Under the pieces are notes generated by a model. The model was not told the DNA's origin. It saw nothing but the letters and a program-made list of their open reading frames with translations, and did not search any database. The position numbers and the translations under genes are program-made. Of a stretch of 64,000 nucleotides of DNA, positions 15,118-20,235 are shown piece after piece. The stretch's first letter is position 1; the number at the start of each line of letters is the position of its first letter. The DNA comes from Ignavibacterium sp. (GTDB lineage Bacteria; Bacteroidota; Ignavibacteria; Ignavibacteriales; Ignavibacteriaceae): contig JAVSMP010000001.1 of assembly GCA_032027145.1 (NCBI GenBank), positions 2,237,116-2,301,115 on the forward strand. The letters are read 5' to 3'.

Positions 15118-16353
15118 ATGACATCAATGCTTTTAGAATTAAGTGAAGGACTGTCAATTGCCTGGCGAGCAATTAAAGCGAATAAAATTCGTGCGATACT
15201 TACTATGCTGGGAATTTTTATTGGTGTAACAGCAGTAGTGCTTATGTCAACTGCAATAAAAGGGATTGATAATTCACTTCAGCAAGGGGTTAGTTCGCTT
15301 GGTTCTGATGTATTATACATTGATAAATGGGCATGGTTCTCAAATGAAGAATGGTGGAGGATGCGTAATCGAAAGAACATCGTAATGGATGATTATTACA
15401 AGTTTAAAGATTTAGCAAAGATGCCTTTAGCTATTGCACCTGTTTCTAATTCTGTGCAAACTATAAAATATGGTGACAGAAAAGTTGAAAATGTTTTTCT
15501 CACAGGTTCAAATGCAGATTATGTGAAAACAACTAATTTTGATTTTAGTGCAGGCAGATTTTTCAGTGAAATTGAATCTGATGGTTCAAGAAATGTTGCA
15601 GTAGTTGGAAGTGAAATTAGTAGTAAATTATTTCCCAGAGGAGATGCTTTAGATAAGACTATTAAAATTGGTCCGGTAAATTATAAAATTGTTGGTGTTT
15701 TGGCAGAACAGGGCAGCACACTTTTAGGAGCGTTCAATCCGGATAATCAGGTCTTTGTTCCTCTCGGAACAATATTTAAATATTTTTCCTCCAGACACAT
15801 GAGATCAATTACTATTAATGTGCGTGCAGCAAGTCCTGAAATGTTAGAAGCAACTAAGGATGAAGCAGAGGGAATTATGAGAAAGATCAGAGGTTTAGCA
15901 CATAACGAACCAAATGATTTTTCAATTAATCAGCAGGAAGGATTAACAAGCTTTTTTGATTCAATTACAATTGTTATAAAGATAGCCGGATTATTTATTA
16001 CCGGATTATCTCTTTTTGTAGGTGCGGTTGGAATTATGAATATTATGTTTGTTTCAGTTAAGGAAAGAACAAGAGAAATCGGATTAAGAAAAGCAATCGG
16101 TGCTACACGTAGAACAATACTTACACAGTTTTTATTGGAGTCATCTGTCATTTGCCTGATTGGAGGTATAATTGGACTAATAGCTGCTATACTTTTAAGT
16201 TTTATGCTTAATCAGTTCTTTCCAACTTCAGTTCAGTATGATGTAGTTATTTTGGCTATTGTTATTTCATTGTTAACAGGAGTTGTCTCCGGATTGGCAC
16301 CTGCTTATACTGCAGCTAAGCTAGATCCCGTTGATGCGCTGAGGTATGAGTAG
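15118..16353 (+). CDS. MacB-like ABC transporter permease (first of two)
   Basis: 411 residues from the ATG at 15118, chosen because AAAGGAA lies 8-14 nt upstream; a TTG at 15088 would add ten residues with no ribosome site. Topology is MacB/FtsX: one N-terminal membrane helix (LTMLGIFIGVTAVVLM), a large periplasmic MacB_PCD domain (about 50-270), then three helices at the C-terminus, with KERTREIGLRKAIGATRRTI as the typical coupling-helix motif and the closing PVDALRYE. Works with the ATPase gene upstream. A foreign element now separates it from the second permease gene. Confidence 0.93.
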   Translation: MTSMLLELSEGLSIAWRAIKANKIRAILTMLGIFIGVTAVVLMSTAIKGIDNSLQQGVSSLGSDVLYIDKWAWFSNEEWWRMRNRKNIVMDDYYKFKDLAKMPLAIAPVSNSVQTIKYGDRKVENVFLTGSNADYVKTTNFDFSAGRFFSEIESDGSRNVAVVGSEISSKLFPRGDALDKTIKIGPVNYKIVGVLAEQGSTLLGAFNPDNQVFVPLGTIFKYFSSRHMRSITINVRAASPEMLEATKDEAEGIMRKIRGLAHNEPNDFSINQQEGLTSFFDSITIVIKIAGLFITGLSLFVGAVGIMNIMFVSVKERTREIGLRKAIGATRRTILTQFLLESSVICLIGGIIGLIAAILLSFMLNQFFPTSVQYDVVILAIVISLLTGVVSGLAPAYTAAKLDPVDALRYE

Positions 16354-16354
16354 A

Positions 16355-16884
16355 GCGGAGTAATGGAGAGTGGAGTTTTGAATAATAGAATGAGAAAAAA
16401 TGAAAGAACACACTAAAAGAAGAAATTTGAATCGTGGTTATATAAAGCTGGAAGTTTGGAATGATGCAATCAGTTTATTCAAATTAACTCATAATCTTGT
16501 GAATAAAATTTCAAACCTTGATTACAAATTAAAAGCTCAAATTTTGGATGCGGCTCAGTCTATCTCATCTAACATTGCTGAAGGTGATGGAAGAAAATCA
16601 ATAAATGAGTATTTATATTTTCTTAATATTAGTTTAGGTTCTTCTGCAGTATTATTAACTCGGATAATTGGACTAAAAGAGATTGATTTAATAAATGTAA
16701 ATGATTTTGAGGAATTTGATTCAAAACATTATGAAAAAACATTATGAAGTTGAAAACAAACTACTCAGTTTAGTGAAATCACTTCAAACAAAACAATCAA
16801 ACGGAACTTGGGATAATCTAGTTCACGAACAAGAAGTTGAGTATGGAACAAATTCCATAACTCCAACTATCCATCATTCCACTT
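16355..16884 (+). mobile_element. IVS-like element: four-helix-bundle gene between imperfect inverted repeats
   Basis: The left arm (16355-16384, GCGGAGTAATGGAGAGTGG onward) is repeated in inverted, imperfect form at 16851-16884; read on the minus strand the right arm gives AGTGGAATGATGGATAGTTG onward. About three quarters of the aligned positions agree. Between them lies only a four-helix-bundle gene of the 23S rRNA intervening-sequence type. The element sits directly after the stop codon of permease 1 and ends 33 bp before permease 2, so it interrupts an operon. A transcript would fold the two arms together, like the stems that flank IVS elements in split 23S rRNA. How it moves is unknown; no transposase or target duplication is evident. 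Confidence 0.55.
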
Positions 16885-16886
16885 GA
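16400..16886 (+). pseudogene. four-helix-bundle protein (23S rRNA IVS family), frameshifted by a 13-bp duplication
   Basis: The first frame (ATG 16400, 115 codons to a stop at 16745-16747) matches the IVS/S23 four-helix-bundle family: LEVWNDAISLFKLTHNL, DAAQSISSNIAEGDGRKS, LYFLNISLGSSAVLLTRI. It ends abnormally in SKHYEKTL. The family's C-terminal helix continues in the next frame as HYEVENKLLSLVKSLQTKQ up to a stop at 16884-16886. The cause is an exact tandem duplication of 13 bp (16723-16735 and 16736-16748); removing one copy restores one frame of 157 residues, whose tail runs through the right inverted repeat. Known members bind RNA or sit in rRNA insertions; cellular function is unproven. 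The broken version lacks helix four. Confidence 0.8.
16723..16748 (+). repeat. exact 13-bp tandem duplication
   Basis: AAAACATTATGAA occurs twice with no spacer (16723-16735, 16736-16748). Since 13 is not a multiple of three, it shifts the four-helix-bundle reading frame. Confidence 0.95.
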
Positions 16887-16916: not shown

Positions 16917-18143
16917 ATGAAAATAAATCAAATACTTGCAATTTCACTTCAATCTTTGAAGAGCAACAGACTTAGAACTTTCTTGACAATACTTGGTGTA
17001 GTTGTTGGTATTTTTTCAATTATTGTGATAATGACTATACTAAGTATGCTGCAAAACAGCATTGATGAAGGACTATCAAGTCTTAGCAAAAATACTTTTC
17101 AAATACAAAAGCACGATAATGTTTTTGGCGGCGGTCCACAGATGCGTGATAGAAACAGAAAAGATATAACCATTGAAGAAGGTGAAAGATTAAGAGACAT
17201 GCTTACTCAAGCTAAATATGTTGGAGTTGAACAATGGCAGTTTGGTATTGTTGTTAAGTATGGTAATAAAGAAACTAATCCAAATATTTCTGTTGCAGGT
17301 GTAAATACAGACGCGATGAAAACAAATGATTGGAATGTTGAAGAAGGAAGAGATTTCCGTGAAAGTGATATTACTCATAGTGCCAATGTTTGTTTGATAT
17401 TTCACCCAATTGCTGAAAAGCTTTTCCCAAACAGCAATCCGATTGGTAAGGAAATCAGAGTAGATGGAAGAGCAATGCGGGTAATTGGTTTAATTGAGCC
17501 GCAAACTGCTCTGTTTGGACAAAGCCGGGATAACTATGTTATTGTACCTATTACAACCTGGCAATCTATGTATGGCAAATATGGACGTTCGGTTAACCTT
17601 ACTGTTATGTCTCAAAGTAAAGAAGATTATAATCAGGTTATTGAAGCTGCAACCGGCTATATGAGAACGATCAGAAAAGTTGCACCGGGTGAACCAAATG
17701 ATTTTTACATTTTCAGTAATGAGTCAATGATTGAACAAACTGATCAGATTACAGGTCCGATTAAACTTATTGCACTGGCAATTTCTTTAATTGCATTGAT
17801 AGCGGCTGGTGTTGGTATAATGAATATTATGTTGGTTTCAGTTACTGAAAGAACAAGAGAAATTGGAATTAGAAAAGCACTTGGTGCTCGGAAGTTGTGG
17901 ATATTAATCCAATTTCTGTTTGAAGCAATTATTCTTTGTCTGCTTGGTGGAATATTGGGAATAATAATTGGCGTTAGTATAGGTAACTTTGCTGGAAGTT
18001 TGTTAAATGCTCAGACAGCTATACCATGGGATTGGGTATTTATTGGTTTGACTATGTGTGTTGCAGTTGGAGTTATCTTTGGAACTTATCCAGCTTATAA
18101 GGCTTCAAACTTAGATCCGATTGAAGCGCTGCGATATGAATAA
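16917..18143 (+). CDS. MacB-like ABC transporter permease (second of two)
   Basis: 408 residues from the ATG at 16917, preceded at 8 nt by AAAAGG; an in-frame ATG at 16887 lies immediately beside the inserted element and lacks such a site. Same architecture as permease 1: helix LRTFLTILGVVVGIFSI, periplasmic domain, three C-terminal helices, coupling motif TERTREIGIRKALGARK and final PIEALRYE. The two permeases are clearly paralogous but diverged, which suggests a heterodimeric transporter sharing one ATPase. Its expression may be reduced or uncoupled by the element inserted just upstream. Confidence 0.93.
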   Translation: MKINQILAISLQSLKSNRLRTFLTILGVVVGIFSIIVIMTILSMLQNSIDEGLSSLSKNTFQIQKHDNVFGGGPQMRDRNRKDITIEEGERLRDMLTQAKYVGVEQWQFGIVVKYGNKETNPNISVAGVNTDAMKTNDWNVEEGRDFRESDITHSANVCLIFHPIAEKLFPNSNPIGKEIRVDGRAMRVIGLIEPQTALFGQSRDNYVIVPITTWQSMYGKYGRSVNLTVMSQSKEDYNQVIEAATGYMRTIRKVAPGEPNDFYIFSNESMIEQTDQITGPIKLIALAISLIALIAAGVGIMNIMLVSVTERTREIGIRKALGARKLWILIQFLFEAIILCLLGGILGIIIGVSIGNFAGSLLNAQTAIPWDWVFIGLTMCVAVGVIFGTYPAYKASNLDPIEALRYE

Positions 18144-18144
18144 A

Positions 18145-18227
18145 ATGGAGTAGTGGAGTTTTGAAGTAATGGAGAGAATGATAAAAAGTTCTTCTTATAT
18201 TTCAACACTCCAGCATTCCATCGCTCC
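18145..18227. repeat. 83-bp inverted-repeat element, short relative of the IVS-like element
   Basis: 18145-18165 and 18201-18221 form an inverted repeat with 17 of 21 positions matching, followed on the right by CGCTCC. The left arm shares the 14-mer AGTGGAGTTTTGAA exactly with the left arm of the element at 16355, and the right arm on the minus strand (GGAGCGATGGAATGCTGGAG) resembles the same arm. Only about 35 bp lie between the arms, with no gene. It sits between convergent genes and, with the T-rich and A-rich flanks, may also terminate transcription. Confidence 0.55.
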
Positions 18228-18231
18228 TTTT

Positions 18232-20235
18232 TTAAAAACTCAAATCGATTTGTAAACTAAACCTGTTATCCAGATTTCCAATTATTTGGTTGTCTCCCGA
18301 ACTGAGAAAAGTTGCATCTGGTTTATAAGTTTCAGAATATTTTGCAGAGACTGTTATCAGATTTATTGGTTTATATCTTATCAAAAAATACCAGCGGATT
18401 CCTTTTCCATACATAGCTAAATTTGGCATTACTCCAACAAGATCGTTTTCAAATTCGTAAACAGCGGAATTAAATGAATCTGTGTGAAAGAAAATAATTC
18501 TACCATATACAACAAATTTTTTTAAGAACAAAAACCTTGCTTCCTGAAAAATTAATAATCCATTTTCAGTTTTATTAGCTGAACGAATTAAAAAATTATT
18601 GTATTCAATCCGGGTTCTAAGTCTAAGTAGATTATTAGTTTCATAAATCAATTCAGTTCGTGCGGTTTGTTTTAATCTTCTCACTATCTTGTTTTCATCA
18701 TCAATTATTTCTGTAATCTCTTTATTCTCATATTTATATCTTAATTTTATTTCAAAGCCCCGGCTAAAACTTGTTAAGAAATCTATCAGTAGTTCATCAC
18801 CTTCGCTTGAAAGAGAATTTTCATATGTTTTATATGGAAATTTGAATATGTCATAATATAAATTAATTATTCCTATGTTGGATTTTAATTTAACACCAGA
18901 ATAAAAACCGACTTCATTATTCGTCTTTCCGGAACGTTCTCCAAAACCAAAACCAAACAGGTTTTTATAATTTCTTGGATATGACCTTATAGCAGTTGTG
19001 AAGATAAGATTTTTTGATGCTGCAAATTGTAATCCATTGTGTGAAGCAACAGAAGTCTGATCATAAGAAGCTTCTCCGAACAAAGAAAATTTGTAATAAT
19101 TTATATTGTAGTAAACAGATAAGTAATTGAAGTTTTGCCCTGATAAATCATACAGCGAACTGTATTCTAATGGTTTATCAAACTTTACCTTATAATAAAT
19201 TGCACCCACATTAAAAATATTTGCAGCTCTGTAATCAAATGATCCCCCATAAAATATCTGCTGAGCAGAATTTTTCTTTGCTATTTCTGTTGTTGTCCGA
19301 TGAAATCCTGTTTTACTGATTGTAATAATTTCGTTTGATTCTTCATTTATGCTGGCATCAATATTATAATTTGAATAAAATCCTGTCAGCCGAAAGTTGT
19401 TAAATTGAATAGTTGAAGCAGCACCTCTAAAAAAGTTATATTCAGCAGCACTTGTATAAGGTCTGATAAATCTGGAACTCTTTTTAACCGGAAAAACTGC
19501 ATCTGCTCCTTTGGAAAAACCGAATGGACTCCATAATGCTAATCCTTGTCCAAGCTCAATAGTGTAATCACCTATTATTAAATTATTTATAAAACCTGCA
19601 TCCTTCATCTGAAAATGAAAAGAAGAAAAATCGGTATGTAATACTTCTCCCGGGTCCTTTTCAATCAGTACACCTGCCTGAAAATTTCTATCGTATTTTA
19701 TTTGAAATCTGTTATAAGTTTTAATTTTTGATCCTGCAAATCTTTGATTTGAAAATCCTCGTCTCGTTTGTAAATCATTTGATATTCTGCTTCTGAGAGT
19801 TGTCCTGAATTTTGAATAGAATGGAATTGAATATTCATCAGATTCAGAAAATTGCTCCTGATCAAATTTATTTTCTACTATTAAAAATGGGATGATCTGT
19901 CCGATAAGATTTTTGTCTAAATCTCTAACTGCAAATAATTCATTTACAGAATAGAAATATCCGAATTTATCTCTGTGATTAATTATTTTTTCAGCAGAGA
20001 CATTATCCATCCCCGGAATTTTGGTTAACTCAAAAATATCTGCTTTGTTCAGGTCTATTGGATTAGTAATTATATCTTCAACATAATCATAAAGGTCTTC
20101 ATCCTCGGATTCACTTTCTGTTTCTATTAAAACATCATCAAGAATTTCTTCAGTCTTCAAAACAGTACTATCAATTTGTGCATAAGCAGGAATAATAATT
20201 GCAGTTAAAAAAATAGTTGTAAATAAATATCTCAA
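18232..20235 (-). CDS. outer-membrane beta-barrel protein with N-terminal helix-hairpin-helix domain
   Basis: 667 residues. Signal peptide about 1-19 (ending AYAQ), an acidic stretch (about 28-50), then ComEA-like helix-hairpin-helix motifs (NPIDLNKADIFELTKIPGMD and HRDKFGYFYSVNELFAV, about 56-110), and after about 140 a long series of alternating-hydrophobicity strands ending in ...FSLQIDLSF, typical of an outer-membrane barrel. The start is TTG immediately after the stop codon of the preceding gene, so it is probably translated by coupling. HHH domains can bind DNA or protein; a role in DNA uptake is possible but unsupported here. Confidence 0.75.
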   Translation of the reverse strand: MRYLFTTIFLTAIIIPAYAQIDSTVLKTEEILDDVLIETESESEDEDLYDYVEDIITNPIDLNKADIFELTKIPGMDNVSAEKIINHRDKFGYFYSVNELFAVRDLDKNLIGQIIPFLIVENKFDQEQFSESDEYSIPFYSKFRTTLRSRISNDLQTRRGFSNQRFAGSKIKTYNRFQIKYDRNFQAGVLIEKDPGEVLHTDFSSFHFQMKDAGFINNLIIGDYTIELGQGLALWSPFGFSKGADAVFPVKKSSRFIRPYTSAAEYNFFRGAASTIQFNNFRLTGFYSNYNIDASINEESNEIITISKTGFHRTTTEIAKKNSAQQIFYGGSFDYRAANIFNVGAIYYKVKFDKPLEYSSLYDLSGQNFNYLSVYYNINYYKFSLFGEASYDQTSVASHNGLQFAASKNLIFTTAIRSYPRNYKNLFGFGFGERSGKTNNEVGFYSGVKLKSNIGIINLYYDIFKFPYKTYENSLSSEGDELLIDFLTSFSRGFEIKLRYKYENKEITEIIDDENKIVRRLKQTARTELIYETNNLLRLRTRIEYNNFLIRSANKTENGLLIFQEARFLFLKKFVVYGRIIFFHTDSFNSAVYEFENDLVGVMPNLAMYGKGIRWYFLIRYKPINLITVSAKYSETYKPDATFLSSGDNQIIGNLDNRFSLQIDLSF

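Follow-up and report, generated by a model that had tools for sequence, protein, structure and literature searches.

Between two permease genes of an Ignavibacterium operon lies a single gene of the IVP family enclosed by inverted arms, and this arrangement is an inserted, horizontally moving unit that occurs with and without its gene. Each arm repeats in tandem a word that is specific to the element, usually of 7 nt and of about 8 nt in the window (the whole stretch of 64,000 nucleotides analysed here), and related elements with other words are present across many bacterial phyla. We have little doubt that a mobile element of this design exists, with one IVP gene between inverted arms built from words. 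Relatives of IVP have been known so far mainly from inserts in rRNA genes, and their presence in a small mobile DNA element joins three puzzles that have been studied separately: the role of the IVP/S23 protein, the heptameric repeats of cyanobacteria, Xanthomonas and other bacteria, and the spread of rRNA IVSs.

The source of the window (genome G000) is a single contig of 3.67 Mb, where profile matches place OEP, HlyD and ABC genes and two MacB/FtsX genes in a row around the element (Table 1). The IVP frame of 115 aa exceeds the curated cut-offs of both PF05635 (E 1.8e-19; 70.4 bits against 33.8) and TIGR02436 (E 4.5e-17; 62.3 against 24), a family with solved structures in the relatives 2GSC and 2RLD. 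The full-length frame is broken in this copy and open across 148 aa in the ortholog of a congener (G002); since that ortholog is open and the pair shows a dN/dS of 0.11 over 109 codons, the frameshift is probably recent. A preliminary description of this DNA had noticed an IVP-type gene between imperfect inverted arms that splits the two permease genes, an arrangement that we find again with slightly refined arm limits: of 2000 mononucleotide shuffles of the two flanks, one gave an arm alignment this good (p 0.0005). The left arm, which starts immediately 3′ of the stop codon of permease 1 (16351-16353), consists of degenerate tandem words of 7-8 nt (CGGAGTAA TGGAGAG TGGAGTTT ...), and by eye both arms read as runs of a degenerate, TGGAGTAA-like 8-nt word. 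They fall short of the periodicity threshold (99% shuffle level, periods 5-12), and a seeded repeat search detected no inverted repeat at the element. When compared with the arms of other loci, the pair ranked only 0.23 in a first comparison with laxer gap costs and came inside the top 10% under stricter ones. Set against the stem of rRNA IVSs, the arms are complementary but imperfect, and the whole element folds little better than its shuffles, with a z of -1.7 (9 of 100 shuffles are equally good); in the minimum-energy structure the arms are paired in part.

Table 1. Features of the element and its surroundings (positions in the window)
Feature	Position	Strand	Basis and remarks
Permease 1 (MacB_PCD + FtsX)	15118..16353	+	Host gene 5′ of the insertion; profile match
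Left (5′) arm	16354..16380	+	Aligns with the reverse-complemented right arm; empty-site comparison
IVP (23S_rRNA_IVP / TIGR02436) ORF, C-terminus cut by frameshift	16400..16747	+	Profile matches; 148-aa ortholog in G002
Perfect 13-bp tandem duplication, frame-shifting	16723..16748	+	16723-16735 = 16736-16748; G002 copy without duplication
Remnant of the former C-terminal frame	16749..16886	+	Crosses the right arm to TGA 16884-16886; by eye and G002 ortholog
Right (3′) arm	16856..16883	+	Imperfect reverse complement of the left arm
Permease 2 (MacB_PCD + FtsX)	16917..18143	+	Host gene 3′ of the insertion; profile match
Gene-less hairpin, same kind of word, after permease 2	18145..18221 (arms 18145-18168, 18198-18221)	+	Fold and alignment

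The feature at the permease junction is an insertion, since the four other congeners searched have nothing at this site. Among 25 genomes searched for permease 2, the gap between the permease matches was readable in 22. The two filled sites measure 566 nt (G000) and 547 nt (G002), as against 3-20 nt in the congeners G001, G003, G004 and G005; in 15 of the other 16 readable genomes the gap lies between -1 and 40 nt, and in the last one, G013, it is 187 nt. Arms unique in the genome and a gene conserved at this site across the genus, which the preliminary description had set against a mobile unit, are not what the comparison of relatives gave: the gene stands at the site in two of six congeners (G000 and G002), and the arm word recurs nearby. 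A tree of the ruv region makes these two genomes sisters (100/99) with G005 outside, and the tree of the permease-2 gene leaves the branching of the three unseparated; a single insertion in the common ancestor of G000 and G002 would most simply account for the pattern. The same junction in G013 is occupied, about 190 nt upstream of permease 2 (L110), by a gene-less inverted hairpin with units of about 6 nt and opposite polarity, as read by eye.

A second element (L047, G005 C31:17073-18396) lies between ruvC and ruvA, genes named by reading, at a junction that is empty in G000, G001, G002, G003 and G004, and its left arm now provides the stop codon of the upstream gene. At two further sites tried (L012, L072) no empty ortholog could be distinguished. 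The permease and ruvC/ruvA junctions show the empty sites known from MITEs and other DNA transposons. Inspection by eye of these two sites gave a TATGAGTGA-like repeat at the former, no clear target-site repeat at the latter, and no reliable target-site duplication at either.

Of 41 genomes at ranks from genus to order, 38 have IVP matches, 1-20 in each. We analysed the flanks of 98 IVP genes, 7 of the source genome and 91 of relatives (one per genome as returned, then others among the matches listed, with some skipped). The best 24-nt match at a lag of 7 averaged 16.3 in the left flank and 16.4 in the right one, with an echo at lag 14, as compared with 10.9-12.3 at other lags, about 11 in shuffles and 10-12 in the farther flanks and the gene. 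At least one period between 5 and 12 exceeded the 99% shuffle level in a flank of 52 of 97 loci, or 51 of 96 without L013, whose right flank is a run of N and scored as periodic at every lag. With this locus left out, the period was 7 in 60 of the 75 significant flanks; where both flanks were significant (24 loci), they had an identical period in 22. The octamer was rejected as a general unit of the arms, the usual period being 7, and the window element belongs to an 8-nt minority. In a 464-kb sample of the source genome, a 7- or 8-nt array of at least 16/21 is present in one of 182 intergenic gaps; the stricter 17/21, the level that matches the 99% shuffle threshold, is reached in no gap. As periodic gene-less arrays are that rare, no large family of passengers is seen in this genome.

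The words themselves are diverse, with 83 distinct consensus words in the 100 of 173 elements that carry a 7-nt array at ≥16/21. When aligned by rotation they follow a common grammar, which reads G (0.88), three loosely preferred positions, T (0.62) or A (0.31), any nucleotide, and A (0.72) or G (0.19). The log-likelihood of this grammar is 197, against a mean of 155 and a maximum of 165 in 20 position-permuted controls, which had fewer random starts; related elements were all kept in. A reversed control pattern (CTAAGGG, three times) gave six matches in G201, another heptamer array met by chance.

The two arms of an element also match each other. The left flank paired with the reverse complement of its own right flank within the top 5% of cross-locus pairings at 72 of 96 loci and within the top 1% at 43 (L013 and L035 dropped), with a permutation z of 36. 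A replication set was drawn from 84,980 species genomes, where at least 563 relatives were found and the best 80, from more than ten phyla, were kept; we refer to these as the named loci. At the 77 usable ones, own arms came within the top 5% in 48 cases and the top 1% in 27 (z 28), and arrays at ≥17/21 were of period 7 for 24 left flanks and 20 right ones, with an echo at 14 for 19 and 13 and at most 3 for any single further period. When the left arm is read in the sense of the gene, G outnumbers C at 67 of 72 loci (the reverse at 4) and at 38 of 48 named ones (the reverse at 8). The top 5% was missed by 24 of the 96 first loci and 29 of the 77 named ones, and four of the seven IVP copies of the source genome lie outside the top 10%. 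Arm pairing was further passed by 19 of 24 loci on viral contigs, several of them near-duplicates, and by 8 of 10 cyanobacterial plasmid loci, taken from 24 plasmid matches, whose arrays are mostly near-perfect heptamers. Three copies of the source genome (L004, L006, L007) seem to be broken or partial, with stops or short profile matches, and L007 falls below the cut-off.

Copies of the arms without the gene, for which the preliminary description had proposed a search, were found both in the window and, in nine instances, in a gammaproteobacterium (G413). The window hairpin folds strongly (18140-18235, z -5.1), and its arm alignment has a shuffle p of 0.002. A similar gene-less hairpin is visible by eye in G003, where the permease junction holds no IVP element. 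After permease 2 of G004 (L104), another long inverted repeat (gtcatttcgac...gaaatgac) replaces the TGGAGTAA-type hairpin.

Three perfect units of GGGAATC, searched in 369 genomes of the class of Thiohalocapsa, occur only in G413. A single IVP gene, matched in two different frames but above the cut-off in just one of them, lies there between frames that read as accB-like and accC-like, with GGGAATC units in the arms. Two perfect units plus one base were found at 17 places of this genome. If two mismatches are tolerated in every two units, ten of these places have a convergent partner within 620 nt, and one such pair is the IVP copy and nine are gene-less; the remaining places are seven single arrays, and divergent pairs are absent. 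Rehm et al. described the same word from two strains of Xanthomonas, with 70 inverted convergent pairs in one and 75 in the other (PMC4692102), so that a heptamer known from there both flanks an IVP gene and forms gene-less hairpins in G413. Other heptamers have been reported in Nostoc, GGGGA(C/T)T (PMC4692102), and in Beggiatoaceae, TAACTGA (PMC4679880), the latter a poor fit to the grammar of the IVP words. Like the arms, these repeats are tandem 7-nt words, mostly intergenic and, in Xanthomonas, often in inverted pairs. In the available text of both papers they are treated as simple repeats, quadruplex formers or regulators, and the terms “four helix” and “23S” are absent from their main text. 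The heptamers of the Coxiella rRNA IVS, discussed below, of Xanthomonas and of Nostoc look like the same phenomenon. In the open-access literature, as far as its available text goes, we found nothing that links IVP genes outside rRNA with heptamer arms.

Word similarity was also compared with protein identity in 4829 pairs at non-orthologous sites, with base composition uncorrected. It rises from 0.49-0.50 at protein identities below 50% to 0.545 in the 372 pairs with 50-60% and 0.622 in the 74 pairs with more than 60%. Loci from distant lineages have such words as GCTGTCA (Methylobacillus), GCTATCA (Nitrospinota and Deltaproteobacteria), and GCAATCA and GCGGTCA (two Planctomycetota), with protein identities of 63-70% in the listed pairs among them. 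Exceptions occur, as in L156/L157 (protein identity 0.72, word 0.54) and L016/L151 (0.63 and 0.37). Overall, word and protein tend to be inherited together. The window element lies outside any rRNA gene, and the preliminary description had suggested that a unit of stem and IVP gene can exist there as a discrete mobile element; the two empty-site junctions and these cross-phylum relatives with similar words bear this out.

At a site shared by G000 and G002 (L001/L032), identity per 60 nt is 0.80-0.95 upstream and 0.97-1.00 across the gene, and it swings between 0.83 and 1.00 just downstream. The near-identical tract extends from the left arm, with few differences, to about 40 bp beyond the right arm, and the dS of the gene is 0.013, as if the element had moved recently.

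Many IVP elements stand at the same sites in different genera and are under purifying selection. Among 21 pairs assigned to a shared site by flank similarity, which are not mutually independent, dN/dS is 0.04-0.19 in 15, the others giving 0.23, 0.29, 0.40, 0.69, 1.39 (too few changes) and one saturated value; the IVP protein therefore does something that is kept. Purifying selection at conserved sites would count against a static selfish element, which would not need it. By inspection, the arms mostly remain matched while the words change at old sites, and this could reflect either selection on the stem or hairpin-templated repair. Elements may also have been replaced at old sites (L042b/L044b, L003/L100), although the divergence equally fits fast vertical evolution. 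In L042 and L044 two IVP elements flank one gene of an operon, which we guess to encode an HD-domain protein, and both arms of the second element have switched to another word between genera.

Conserved sites across genera, dN/dS values near 0.1 and a gene-less hairpin that resembles a terminator where the operon ends convergently are also what one would expect if IVP were just a small gene of the operon, flanked by hairpins that serve locally as terminators or attenuators, with nothing mobile about it. This reading is very hard to reconcile with the empty sites at two junctions, the multiplicity of IVP matches in single genomes, the similar words beside 63-70% identical proteins in different phyla and the element-sized tract of identity, and we regard it as highly improbable.

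The window element encodes no recombinase-like protein, and IVP is not known to have catalytic residues. In one account the hairpins are moved in trans, either by a transposase of the Y1/RAYT type or by slippage and template switching, IVP being a passenger or a regulator. Slippage and hairpin-templated repair could maintain tandem words and matched arms, and a protein with no known catalytic residues fits such a role; likewise, REPIN hairpins have been proposed to be moved by RAYTs (PMC3116915). The likeness to REPINs, as far as the available text describes them, extends to hairpins of two inverted short repeats and to gene-less copies that share the flank sequence of the gene-bearing copy (PMC3116915), which is observed in G413 and in the window (18145-18221). 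In contrast, the gene here encodes a PF05635 four-helix bundle and no Y1 tyrosine transposase, and the arms are tandem heptamers. The tendency of the word to follow the protein across phyla and the purifying selection on IVP also speak against movement in trans, as does the dispensability of a reverse transcriptase, and we consider this account rather unlikely.

The reverse transcriptase deserves a separate comment. Avd, of diversity-generating retroelements, has a fold homologous to that of IVP (4DWL and 2GSC), and IVP has been reported as an Avd-like family, according to the part of the source available to us (PMC10053308). Unlike Avd systems, IVP elements do not need a reverse transcriptase: an RVT_1 match is absent from 20 of the 38 IVP-bearing genomes, including G006 and G019 with 20 IVP matches each, and from the source genome; several assemblies in this count are incomplete, and G000, G002, G006, G012 and G024 are single contigs. 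A reverse-transcriptase partner as in the Avd model was rejected as a requirement on these grounds.

A different alternative places the action at the RNA level, where the arms would pair in the operon transcript, RNase III would cut the stem and the protein would shield or use the RNA, the selected trait being tolerance of an insertion in transcribed DNA. The closest known case is the 23S rRNA IVS of Coxiella burnetii, whose 5′ part carries GACAGAT three times in tandem, followed by a degenerate fourth copy, immediately before the gene, the number of heptamers varying among strains; this IVS has a 28-bp terminal stem and is cleaved by RNase III (PMC4990558). The available text of that paper also describes the S23p of X. 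campestris as a homopentamer and reports that the Coxiella protein is subject to reductive evolution and is probably not produced (PMC4990558). XCC0516 is the solved IVP structure 2GSC. When rotated, the Coxiella heptamer fits the word grammar of the IVP elements. Both cases have an IVP gene in sense between pairing ends, and tandem heptamers; they differ in that the window element stands between protein genes, has another word and is only a candidate for RNase III processing, and in that the IVP protein is kept here, as dN/dS indicates. IVP genes have also been reported inside 16S and 23S insertions of CPR bacteria, in the portion of the paper available (PMC11270868). None of the 80 named loci, the best of at least 563, matched any of four 23S strings, so the link to rRNA rests on the literature.

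Orientation lends some weight to RNA-level action. Among 97 loci (L013 dropped; 11 undecided on one side), the IVP gene is sense to both neighbours in 69, sense/antisense in 12, antisense/sense in 4 and antisense to both in 1, against 205, 53, 43 and 17 of 318 ordinary genes of the source genome in the same four classes (naive ORF calls). Co-direction with the upstream gene is higher for IVP (85 of 90 against 258 of 318, p 0.002), and the named loci give 58 of 80 sense to both and 3 of 80 antisense to both. The 69:1 ratio does not suit orientation-blind insertion without selection, and a need for host transcription would explain it. However, against the co-directional base rate of the ordinary genes (205 vs 17) the excess is only suggestive (Fisher p 0.08), which weakens the depletion of antisense copies as proof of an RNA role, and 3 of the 10 cyanobacterial plasmid copies are antisense to both neighbours. 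In the first set, mismatches between the arms leaned slightly and non-significantly to G.U over A.C (130 vs 103, p 0.09), with G.U the commoner in 30 loci and the rarer in 17; the named set (63 vs 69) shows no such lean, nor do the pooled data show a clear one (193 vs 172, p 0.30). Selection on an RNA stem is thus unsupported by an excess of G.U, and its absence would lean, weakly, toward a stem at the DNA level. Of the RNA-level action suggested in the preliminary description, the orientation bias speaks in favour, weakened by the base rate, and the expected G.U excess did not appear; we judge this alternative improbable.

The explanation that we favour, with modest confidence, is that the window holds a degraded copy of a mobile element whose IVP protein would recognise the arms and whose hairpin would be copied or inserted elsewhere. 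The presumed moving form is a hairpin that the arms would make in RNA or in single-stranded DNA; recognition by the IVP ring protein would enable the copying or insertion of this hairpin at other places, and gene-less hairpins would be non-autonomous passengers. Transcription of the IVP gene probably comes from the host operon, and this would account for the mostly sense orientation of the surviving copies and for their place just 3′ of a stop codon; the 23S rRNA IVSs would represent insertions of such elements into rRNA genes. As for the protein, a direct part in the movement is conceivable by analogy, with the balance tilting slightly against it. Only tentatively can one go further, to a new class of autonomous mobile element in which a pentameric IVP without a recombinase fold would drive the spread of its own heptamer hairpins and each lineage would evolve its own word, the rRNA IVSs, the heptamer repeats of cyanobacteria (presumably those called STRRs) and the GGGAATC hairpins of Xanthomonas being its products. 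Two predictions can be tested, that IVP binds its own word and that hairpins move with IVP.

These elements also carry a warning, since IVP genes inside CRISPR and other operons may be insertions and not functional partners. IVP is listed among the domains of a CRISPR survey, in one figure legend of the text available (PMC10910872), and an IVP gene lies between cas6 and cas4 in Pseudanabaena and in Anabaena sp. 90. The Anabaena sp. 90 copy looks like an insertion because it has paired heptamer arms, and the apparent linkage of the gene to CRISPR may be due, on this sequence evidence, to insertion. These paired arms belong to a plasmid locus (L277), and in the plasmid of Pseudanabaena galeata (L269) the arrays are present on both sides of the gene as direct repeats, without inversion.
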